Positions 24,720-34,845 of a DNA stretch of 39,836 nt are shown piece after piece. The notes below the pieces were generated by a model. It did no database searches, was not told the origin of the DNA, and saw nothing but the letters and a program-made list of their open reading frames with translations. How positions within the stretch are numbered: the stretch's first letter is position 1; the number at the start of each line of letters is the position of its first letter. The stretch lies in NCBI GenBank assembly GCA_001941225.1, contig MSHM01000017.1, forward strand, positions 53,968 to 93,803, written 5' to 3'. Source of the DNA: Oscillospiraceae bacterium Zagget12. GTDB lineage: Bacteria > Bacillota > Clostridia > UBA1381. A program made the position numbers and the translations under genes.

Positions 24720-26099
24720 TTATTGCTCGGATAAAAATTCTTTTGCCGCCGCAATGGCTTTTTCCACGATGTCCTTTGCCGGACCGCCGATAACCTTTCT
24801 GTCGTTTACGCAGGTTTCCATACTTATCGCGTCATAAATATCGTTCTCAATAATATCGGAGAATTCCTTAAACTCGTCCATAGTCAAATCATCAAGCGCT
24901 TTGTCGTGCTCAATCGCGTAGAATACCATTCTTCCCACAACAGCGTGCGCCTCTCTGAACGGCAGACCCTTTTTAACGAGATAGTCCGCTACGTCGGTCG
25001 CGTTTGTAAATCCGCCTTTTGAACCCTTTAGCATATTGTCTGTTTTAACCGTCATTGTCGCAATCATATCGCAGAACACCGGCAGACAAAGCTTTACGGT
25101 ATCAATCGCGTCAAATATAGGCTCCTTGTCCTCCTGCATATCCTTATTATACGCGAGCGGAATACCCTTCATCGTGGTGAGCAGTCCCATAAGATGCCCG
25201 TATACGCGTCCGGTTTTGCCGCGGATAAGCTCGGCAACGTCGGGATTTTTCTTTTGCGGCATTATAGATGAGCCGGTCGAGAACGCGTCGTCCATTTCAA
25301 CAAATGAAAATTCATGGCTTGACCACAAAATAAGCTCCTCCGAAAAACGGCTAAGGTGCATCATAATTATTGAAAGACAGCTTGCAAGCTCAATCACAAA
25401 ATCTCTGTCCGAAACGCCGTCAAGCGAGTTCATTGTTACAGCGTCAAAGCCAAGCTCCTCCGCGACAAATTCGCGGTCGAGAGGGTAGGTGGTACCCGCA
25501 AGCGCGCCGCTGCCCAAGGGCATCGAGTTTGTTCGTTTTCTGCAATCCCTGAGGCGGCATAAGTCGCGCTTGAACATTTCAAAATACGCCATAAGATGAT
25601 GCGCGAATGTAACGGGCTGAGCCTTTTGCAGATGCGTGTATCCGGGCATAATGGTTTCGGTGTGCTCGGACGCCAAATCAACGATTACGTTGAGCGCGTG
25701 TATAAGCATTTCTTCTATTTCCGCCGTTTCGTCCATAAGATACATTCTGATGTCCAATGCCACCTGGTCGTTTCTGCTCCTGCCGGTATGAAGTCTTTTT
25801 CCCGCATCGCCGATGCGCTCGATAAGAATTTTTTCGATATTCATATGAATGTCCTCGGCGTCTATTTCAAATTCGATTTTACCGTCCTCGATGTCGCGCA
25901 GAATGTTTTTCAGCTCCGCGACGATTTTGTCGCTGTCCTCCTGCGGGATAATGCCCTGTTTGCCGAGCATAGTCGCGTGAGCGATTGAACCCTTTATATC
26001 CTGCTTGTACATACGCTTGTCAAAGCGTATCGATGAATTGAAATCGTCAACCTTTTTGTCGGTGCTTTTCTGAAAGCGCCCGCCCCATAATTTTGCCAT
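24720..26099 (-). CDS. argH: Argininosuccinate lyase
   Basis: This enzyme catalyses the last step of arginine biosynthesis, splitting argininosuccinate into arginine and fumarate. The 459 residues are typical. Motifs seen are AKLWGGRF at the N-terminus, [25 protein letters not shown] with the catalytic His, and the superfamily signature [12 protein letters not shown] with the flexible-loop Ser. The start is the ATG at complement 26099, with GGAG 6 nt upstream. An in-frame ATG 12 nt earlier and a GTG at 26132 lie inside the repeated hairpin element and are less likely. argG is not adjacent. A leader of about 180 nt with a small ORF suggests post-initiation control. Confidence 0.95.
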
Positions 26100-26103
26100 A
26101 GTT

Positions 26104-26132
26104 ATCTCCATTCCGCCGCCTTTAGGCGGCAC
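26104..26132 (-). promoter_or_regulatory. Hairpin-SD cassette before argH (copy 1)
   Basis: The 29 nt contain GCCGCC-TAAA-GGCGGC, a 6-bp hairpin with a four-base loop, followed by GGAATGGAGAT carrying the Shine-Dalgarno. It is identical base for base to 34009-34037 before proC. In both places GGAG stands 6 nt before the ATG, and the cassette could be read in frame as [10 protein letters not shown]. Confidence 0.85.
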
Positions 26133-26216
26133 AAATTATAACGTGGAAAAGAAACAAGCAGATTGCCGTTATGATGAACGCCGACGTATTAGCATACTTC
26201 AAGTTCCGAATAATGG

Positions 26217-26240
26217 TTAGCTGCGCAGTTTATTTTTCAC
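26217..26240 (-). CDS. Seven-codon leader ORF upstream of argH
   Basis: On the minus strand AAAGGAG (26248-26254) stands 7 nt before GTG (26240), which opens MKNKLRS followed by TAA. The sixth codon is CGC (Arg). It lies between the argH promoter and the hairpin cassette, about 118 nt before the argH ATG. The strong Shine-Dalgarno with ideal spacing in an otherwise gene-free leader is the main argument. There is no run of Arg codons, so classical codon-counting attenuation is not obvious. It may be a leader peptide or the remnant of a longer gene. Confidence 0.55.
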   Translation of the reverse strand: MKNKLRS

Positions 26241-26285
26241 GTTATTACTCCTTTGTTATTTAAGATTGCATATATCTCGCATAAT

Positions 26286-26314
26286 ATTATATAATAAAGC
26301 GCGGAAAATGTAAA
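26286..26314 (-). promoter_or_regulatory. Promoter of argH
   Basis: On the minus strand TTTACA (26309-26314) and TATAAT (26286-26291) are 17 nt apart. Transcription would start near 26279, giving a leader of about 180 nt. I could not define an ArgR box. Confidence 0.75.
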
Positions 26315-33995: not shown

Positions 33996-34008
33996 TAATT
34001 TAATGTTA

Positions 34009-34037
34009 GTGCCGCCTAAAGGCGGCGGAATGGAGAT
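34009..34037 (+). promoter_or_regulatory. Hairpin-SD cassette before proC (copy 2)
   Basis: Identical to complement 26104-26132: a GCCGCC-TAAA-GGCGGC hairpin followed by GGAATGGAGAT. GGAG is again 6 nt before the start codon and the cassette is again in frame with the gene. Confidence 0.85.
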
Positions 34038-34041
34038 TAAT

Positions 34042-34845
34042 ATGAAATTAGGATTTATAGGCGGCGGAAATATGGGCGGCGCGATTATCGGCGGAATAAT
34101 AAACGCGCGGATTGCCGCGCCGTCGGACATACTTGTTTCGGACGCTAACCCGTCCGCGCTTGCGAAAATAAGCGCCGAGTACGGAGTTAATACCACAAAC
34201 GATAACAAAGAAACGGCGGAAAAATCGGATATATTGTTTTTATGCGTAAAGCCGCAGTTTGTATATTTTGTAATTAACGAGATAAAGGACAGCGTTTCGG
34301 AAAACACGGTAATTGTTTCGATAGTTGCGGGACAGTCAATCGAGGCTCTTACAGACGCGTTCGGCAGAGATATAAAGCTTGTGCGCGTAATGCCGAACAC
34401 ACCGGCATTGGTTGGCGAGGGAATGTCGGCAGTTTCACCGAATAAAAATATTTCCTCATCGGAAAGCGCGGTTATTGAGCAAATTTTCAACAGTTTCGGC
34501 AAATGCGAGATAGTGCCCGAAAACCTTATGGACGCGGTAACGGCTGTAAACGGTTCCTCGCCCGCGTACGTGTTTATGATGATTGAGGCAATGGCGGACG
34601 CGGCTGTTATGGGAGGTATGCCGAGAAGTCAGGCGTACACCTTTGCGGCGCAGGCTGTTATGGGCAGCGCGAAAATGGTGCTTGAAACGGGAAAGCACCC
34701 GGGCGAGCTGAAGGATATGGTATGCTCACCCGCCGGAACCACAATAGACGCTGTAGCGGTGCTTGAATCCGAGGGGTTCAGATATGCTATGATCAAGGCG
34801 ATGGCGGCTTGTATGGAAAAGTCCAAAGAACTAGGTAAAAAATAA
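34042..34845 (+). CDS. proC: Pyrroline-5-carboxylate reductase
   Basis: This enzyme makes proline by NAD(P)H-dependent reduction of pyrroline-5-carboxylate. The 267 residues are the usual length. The N-terminal dinucleotide fold GFIGGGNMGGAIIGG and RVMPNTPALVGEGMSA, followed by the C-terminal signature near MGGMPRSQAYTFAAQ, are diagnostic. The PAGTTIDAVAVLE end motif is intact. The ATG at 34042 is taken because GGAG lies 6 nt upstream. Longer in-frame versions from 34003 would add the [10 protein letters not shown] peptide encoded by the hairpin cassette. It is followed by an 18-bp hairpin. Confidence 0.95.
   Translation: MKLGFIGGGNMGGAIIGGIINARIAAPSDILVSDANPSALAKISAEYGVNTTNDNKETAEKSDILFLCVKPQFVYFVINEIKDSVSENTVIVSIVAGQSIEALTDAFGRDIKLVRVMPNTPALVGEGMSAVSPNKNISSSESAVIEQIFNSFGKCEIVPENLMDAVTAVNGSSPAYVFMMIEAMADAAVMGGMPRSQAYTFAAQAVMGSAKMVLETGKHPGELKDMVCSPAGTTIDAVAVLESEGFRYAMIKAMAACMEKSKELGKK

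Follow-up and report, generated by a model that had tools for sequence, protein, structure and literature searches.

A dispersed hairpin element with its own Shine-Dalgarno sequence, inserted at gene starts in a family of Clostridia

The repeat in front of argH and proC

The window analysed here, a stretch of 39,836 nucleotides of contig MSHM01000017.1 of Oscillospiraceae bacterium Zagget12 (genome G000, a 1.9-Mb draft, 77% complete), contains argH on the minus strand (24720..26099, ATG at 26099-26097; Pfam Lyase_1 and ASL_C2) and proC on the plus strand (34042..34845; Pfam P5CR_dimer). An earlier note on this DNA had pointed to a 29-nt repeat, GTGCCGCCTAAAGGCGGCGGAATGGAGAT, in front of both genes, and its two copies were confirmed at 26104-26132 (minus strand, argH) and 34009-34037 (plus strand, proC). 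A search of the window with the 27-nt core of this repeat, allowing up to three mismatches, returned two matches, both exact, and none of 100 shuffled sequences gave a match, which shows that the repeat is not a product of chance. As read directly from the sequence, the argH copy comprises a short GC hairpin, GCCGCC-TAAA-GGCGGC (26115..26130, minus strand), and a Shine-Dalgarno (SD) motif, GGAG (26106..26109, minus strand); at proC the hairpin lies at 34011..34026 and GGAG at 34032..34035, both on the plus strand. The spacing of 6 nt between GGAG and the ATG, also reported before, was found in both copies. The two copies are indeed in frame with the argH and proC open reading frames (ORFs) (24720-26132 and 34003-34845, respectively), but an in-frame peptide was rejected as a trait of the family, as 13 of 56 copies have a stop in the ATG frame no more than 36 nt before the ATG; across these 56 copies the distance from hairpin to ATG ranges from 26 to 44 nt.

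The description of the repeat as a 29-nt cassette turned out to be too narrow, since these nucleotides are the right end of a unit of about 140-150 nt. The sequence outside the 29 nt does differ between the argH and proC copies, as had been stated, but this is misleading, for about 111 nt upstream of the argH copy are part of the same dispersed element, and it is only the proC copy that is devoid of them. Based on the comparison of the filled and empty sites L020 and L091 and on copies elsewhere, the whole element inserted at argH is about 141 nt long (26103..26243, minus strand), with the left end AACGTG and the right end at 26104 or 26103. Its core is a long imperfect hairpin of 106 nt (26138..26243, minus strand), with a folding z-score of -3.2 for this copy and covarying pairs in a set of 76 cores. 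Upstream of it lies the native SD of argH, AAAGGAG (26248..26254, minus strand), which is now about 150 nt away from the start codon and is the sole SD at the corresponding empty site of the closest relative (G006). Further upstream, a promoter-like TTTACA-17-TATAAT (26286..26314, minus strand) was recognised by its match to the consensus; the promoter scan yielded three sites, compared with 2.3 in shuffled sequences, so the evidence for a promoter is weak.

In G006, argH is preceded by AAGGAGTAATACTATG with a single SD, while in the window the order is AAGGAGTAAT, then the element, then ACTATG. A match to argH was found in 21 of 22 genomes, and among these 21 the full element profile was found exclusively at the window's own locus (0 of the 20 loci of other relatives). 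At proC, where a check with the full profile revealed a solo right end with no core, the comparison of relatives showed a native SD (AAGGAG) in G012, whereas none was seen in G000 and G006, the SD behind the short hairpin being the only one seen. Solo or strongly shortened copies occur also at other places. A separate case is L121 of genome G003, in which a core without the tail lies about 100 nt or more upstream of proC and the native SD is kept, an exception to the usual position of the element.

Spread of the element and its position at genes

The exact hairpin GCCGCCTAAAGGCGGC occurs only twice in G000, and two more copies have a GAAA loop. In G021, a relative from another genus, 14 hairpin copies were found at up to one mismatch, 12 of which continue through the SD into a start codon; of the other two, L011 ends with the contig and L015 continues into another copy of the element. 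In 13 of these 14 copies the hairpin is preceded by a conserved stretch of about 110 nt, which is shortened in L019, and it is the same stretch that is present upstream of the argH copy and absent upstream of the proC copy. A 94-nt query taken from the argH copy gave, at E<=1, 30 matches in G000, 38 in G006 and 42 in G021, the weakest of them short or due to chance.

The covariance model R1 (E<=1e-4) detected the element in the window's family in 51 of 70 genomes, belonging to 15 of the 17 genera counted, and 25 genomes from other families of the order gave no match. A genome had up to 44 matches, which is also the number of candidates scored per genome, so that copy numbers are capped at this value. 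Within the window's genus the distribution is patchy: there were 29 matches in G000, 36 in G006 and at least 44 in G002, and 8 of 16 genomes gave no match at the cut-off. The carriers named in a scan of genome contigs are uncultured Clostridia, including Candidatus Avimonoglobus intestinipullorum; two odd hits of that scan, L188 ("Alphaproteobacteria") and L191 ("Phycisphaerae"), were discarded, as neither has the core. Searches of the phage and plasmid collections revealed nothing resembling the element, and viral contigs gave no match to two exact element patterns.

For the analysis of position, the core alone served as the search profile, so the tail could not bias the outcome. The loci searched included 40 places chosen from the best-scoring ones of the covariance model. 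The 205 raw hits were reduced, by removing the palindrome echoes on the reverse strand, to 137 core copies, of which 130 had 200 nt of downstream sequence and 100 had an intact left end (L201, L198, L199 and L063, repeats of other loci, and L216-L217, with the match not at the assumed place, were dropped before counting). A copy passed the downstream test when an SD and an ORF start (ORF of at least 80 aa, or at least 40 aa and open-ended) followed within 80 nt on the same strand. This was the case for 111 of 130 core copies, and in 78 of these 111 the SD and start lay 36-45 nt from the end of the core, whereas random positions in the same loci passed in 2046 of 19508 cases (10.5%) under the same simple ORF and SD rules, and in the antisense direction from the left end only 2 of 132 passed. 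On the other side of the element, an SD-like motif was present within 18 nt upstream of 75 of the 100 left ends, compared with 20% of random positions. Thus, 25 left ends are without such a motif and 19 copies fail the downstream test; these 19 include SD-start cases missed by the rules (L026, L088, L256), tandem arrays (L062, L221) and a few copies at which no gene was seen (e.g., L240, L260). Four core copies (L054, L056, L075, L082) have no hairpin-SD part and lie upstream of a native SD.

The proteins encoded downstream of the G000 copies were compared with Pfam, leaving aside four copies with short or uncertain frames (L026, L033, L057, L063), and 17 of 19 matched families sharing no common pathway. 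Apart from ArgH and ProC, they include galactose-1-phosphate uridyltransferase, NrdR, QueF, ThiG, CtsR, an ATP synthase alpha/beta subunit, a class I tRNA synthetase, and SipL-, MurJ- and Asp23-type proteins. The proposal of a control element shared by the arginine and proline pathways is therefore not supported, as the downstream genes are unrelated and the element is not kept at argH orthologs. The earlier note had named the presence of the cassette at hundreds of unrelated genes as the finding that would speak against its reading; what was found is dozens per genome rather than hundreds, and this went against the pathway reading.

The gene starts behind the G000 and G006 copies were sought in G000, G006, G012 and G014 and compared. 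There were 23 filled sites with at least one ortholog labelled as empty, a label assigned by script (L138 possibly starts within the element, the site in L142 is occupied by other sequence, the orthology of L158 is poor, and L131, L132, L134, L135 and L139 lie at contig ends). Junctions were readable in 17 of them (L020, L027, L029, L032, L033, L038, L041, L042, L045, L047, L053, L057, L059, L064, L065, L066, and L068), and all 17 insertions are located between the position of the native SD and the start codon; we judged the native SD to be clear in 13 of them and to be weak or absent in the remaining four (L027, L033, L038, L041). Where the site is clearest (L041, L064, L068), the flanks have only a T in common, which means that no target duplication longer than 1 nt exists there, while a short duplication remains possible at the other sites. 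A T stands directly before the junction in 91 of the 100 intact left ends, preceded by purine-rich bases; the SD core begins 5-9 nt before the junction in 54 of them and is missing in 37. G000 and G006 each carry copies that the other lacks, and orthologous copies common to both exist as well. It is also worth mentioning that 6 of 11 orthologous gene starts of G006 (L131, L132, L134, L135, L138, L139) are no more than about 80 nt away from a contig end, a clustering that might reflect filled and empty alleles within one population.

Anatomy, folding and a second sub-family

In the 5' to 3' direction, a complete element consists of AACGTGAAAAATAAGCGGCGC, the long hairpin, GCTTCTTTTCCACGTTA, a linker of about 7 nt, the short GC hairpin and GGAATGGAGATT, after which the native sequence with the start codon follows. 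The short hairpin has the stem GCCGCC/GGCGGC with the loops TAAA, GCAA, GAAA, GTAA, GTT and others. RNA folding of four single copies gave z-scores from -3.2 to -4.95, and a consensus built from 24 copies has 34 pairs, 10 of which are changed on both sides. In the set of 76 cores, from which eleven near-identical G021 loci and cores outside 98-112 nt were excluded, the 30 pairs of the long hairpin are formed in 95.4% of cells and 23 of the 30 are changed on both sides; none of 500 shuffles reached any of five measures, and sliding the partner by 1-3 columns lowered the pairing to 35-52%. The G.U and A.C cells are equally common in the core stems (45 and 46, respectively), and hence the pairing is not established as kept at the RNA level; a requirement at the DNA level, or the correction of a palindrome by template switching, would do as well in explaining the paired core.

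Among the loci searched for them, extra hairpin modules of about 30-60 nt are found at fixed points of the core, i.e., after GCGGCGC (7 copies), in the apical loop (7) and in the 3' arm (2), and it looks as if the element takes up further inserts in a modular manner (carriers are L027, L030, L033, L036, L041, L064, L067, L068, L070, and L071, as well as L057 and L081). The G021 copies, L207 and L208 contain, in the 5' arm at about positions 24-36 of the core, the sequence CCTCCTTTC, which resembles the anti-SD end of 16S rRNA; the covarying stem at this place has several variants, of which this is one. Among a few shortened copies that are orthologous between G000 and G006, the outer stem is paired with different letters: L060 has AACGTG with CACGTT, whereas its ortholog L141 has AACGCG with CGCGTT (further shortened ortholog pairs are L059/L140, L036/L133, and L074/L153).

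Predicted pairing supports an open ribosome-binding site in the element copies. The mean unpaired probability predicted for the SD is 0.45, compared with 0.29 when the upstream part is shuffled with single-base composition preserved, and it is higher in 41 of 55 copies; for the start codon the respective values are 0.55 and 0.48 (higher in 38 of 55). Some SDs are predicted to be closed, with 0.01 for L024 and L038.

In addition, G021 and G085 harbour dozens of related units, here called cousins, whose core (AAAGATAAGC...GCTTCTCTTT) is similar, whereas the ends (AAGTTTGGAA/TTCTCCAAAC) and the tail (GGCATTGGTGAAAGGAGTTCGGAATATAA) are different. The SD rule missed this second sub-family because its GGAG is further from the ATG. 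The cousin tail was matched in nine G021 loci; in eight of them an ATG located 8-9 nt after the matched tail begins an ORF, and the ninth is interrupted by a contig end. An SD-like motif was found in 8 of 11 cousin left flanks (G021 and G085), and the cousin L336 follows immediately after the SD of a type I tail. The second sub-family, in its G021 copies, thus has the same start-codon habit, and the G085 cousins are less clear, some being in tandem and several being without an evident gene start. Cousin units that repeat about every 105-111 nt form tandem arrays in L062:810-1026, L221:1504-1919 and L319, and on the G085 contigs C7, C92, C160, and C222.

Relation to known repeats, mechanism and rival explanations

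No mobilising enzyme was found in a search for Y1 transposases or in a search for split copies in G002, G021, and G023. PF01797 is present in 9 of the 14 genomes searched and absent from the copy-rich G006 and G085, and a Y1 (HUH) transposase was rejected as a partner, since no element sequence occurs in the 20 Y1 loci of these 14 genomes. Concerning split copies, for 115 left halves the right half was located within 300 nt in 75, at 0.3-5 kb in three, and not within 5 kb in 37. In two of the three wide-gap cases, L338 and L340, a truncated left end stands in front of a host gene and another copy follows at some distance (the host gene of L338 belongs to the phosphoglucomutase family; that of L340 has no Pfam match and its next gene encodes a solute-binding protein), and L339 represents two separate copies.

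Miniature elements derived from IS200/IS605 are palindrome-associated and move by a mechanism that involves a hairpin near each end, no target duplication and a short target, ended by a T, at the left junction. The element shares with them the sub-terminal hairpins, the lack of target duplication and the T before the left junction, but no Y1 gene adjoins matching ends. Classical MITEs mobilised by DDE transposases are short, non-coding, bounded by inverted repeats and variably present between relatives. The element is likewise short, non-coding, multi-copy and non-autonomous, with internal inverted repeats and empty sites in relatives; unlike these MITEs, however, the moved unit has no inverted repeats at its outer ends (the left end AACGTG pairs with CACGTTA at the end of the core, while the moved unit extends about 35 nt further to GGAGATT) and there is no multi-nucleotide target duplication. 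The pneumococcal BOX, RUP and SPRITE repeats, as described in PMC3049150, resemble the element in being short, numerous, strongly folded, patchy among close relatives and co-transcribed with genes, BOX being also partly modular. Terminal inverted repeats and target duplications are reported for BOX and RUP, and the repeats are enriched between convergent genes (PMC3049150); the element differs in that duplications at its clearest sites do not exceed 1 nt, in lying on the sense strand at start codons and in having its own SD. REP/REPIN repeats are palindromic, numerous and non-autonomous as well, but are 20-40 bp long and tagged with GTAG or CGTC, whereas the element is about 140-150 nt long, has the consensus ends AACGTG and GGAGATT and carries an SD; neither tag occurs on a 20-40 bp palindrome in the element consensus A1. 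In a full-text search of the open-licence literature, judged by titles and the beginnings of abstracts, no description of a MITE or interspersed repeat bearing an SD or ribosome-binding site was found. None of these kinds, the closest to the element, fits it when tested. We regard the element as a MITE-like repeat that is unusual in where it lands and in what it carries.

Taken together, we regard it as very probable that this is a non-autonomous mobile element which docks in the spacer between SD and start codon and supplies a replacement ribosome-binding site. The idea of a mobile hairpin with a ribosome-binding site, raised in the earlier note, is supported by the empty sites, the many copies and the element's own SD before unrelated genes. 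The element inserts sense-wise, usually after a T, between the SD of a gene and its start codon, making at most a 1-nt target duplication where this can be judged. The native SD ends up more than 100 nt upstream, and the SD of the element stands at normal spacing from the start codon. The hairpins would then fold on themselves, the new SD would stay accessible and translation would probably start there, as the SD spacing and the predicted openness suggest; the insertion would in that case be nearly harmless and survive, and start codons would tolerate such a mobile unit on account of the substitute ribosome-binding site that comes with it. Subsequently, the core may shrink or disappear while the hairpin-SD part persists as the ribosome-binding site of the gene, as at proC.

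The choice of landing site may reflect either targeting or survival bias, and the scarcity of antisense copies favours targeting. That insertion is random, and that only copies keeping the gene translatable are seen, is a serious though somewhat doubtful alternative: purifying selection against other sites is to be expected and a quarter of the left ends have no upstream SD-like motif, but antisense places and places downstream of genes should then be tolerated, and they are scarce, and the purine tract and T at the left junction also speak against it. Random insertion bears on targeting only and leaves the mobile ribosome-binding site as it is. Nearly, but not quite, on an even footing with its negation, in our estimate, is the broader proposal that a class of mobile elements targets the translation-initiation region, recognising a sense-strand SD followed by T, making no target duplication and insulating the ribosome-binding site by two hairpins. 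This class would comprise two sub-families or more, whose ends differ and whose tails are unrelated, and by their shared habit genes would come to use imported, exchangeable ribosome-binding sites.

The remaining explanations concern the nature of the element. If the element were a cis-regulatory RNA, such as a riboswitch, a thermosensor or a leader bound by a protein, that controls a regulon including argH and proC and has spread as a module, this would account for a strong covarying hairpin placed on the sense strand only before genes, with an SD and start codon more open than behind shuffled sequence; we consider it unlikely, given the unrelated downstream genes, the absence of the element from argH in the 20 other relatives with an argH match and the lack of an excess of G.U over A.C. 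Moreover, in the window only a tRNA reaches the Rfam gathering threshold, and the element has just a sub-threshold Histone3 match on the wrong strand. Improbable to a similar degree is a translated leader, in which the native SD drives a small ORF from a GTG of the element and the gene is translated by coupling. A GTG-like codon (T second) does lie a few nucleotides behind the native SD in 81 of 100 left ends, and the G021 copies that were read have this frame open to a TGA next to the short hairpin; yet at argH the frame ends after seven codons (GTG AAA AAT AAA CTG CGC AGC TAA), and 19 of 100 left ends have a GCG-like codon instead. We consider it very unlikely that the elements have an old origin and that precise excision produced the empty sites. 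Orthologous copies common to G000 and G006 would fit such a history, but each genome holds copies absent from the other, and for the 20 argH loci without the element one gain is simpler than many losses.

An insertion between the SD and the start codon should silence the gene, and here a repeat family seems to be specialised in exactly those few nucleotides and to bring its own replacement signal, so that it seems able to multiply before housekeeping genes. If translation starts at the imported SD, the element is a natural movable ribosome-binding part and a route for changing the 5' leaders of many genes at once. Gene annotation near copies in this family, i.e., of leaders, start codons and small ORFs, needs care, and the element would make it testable how mobile DNA settles at start codons.
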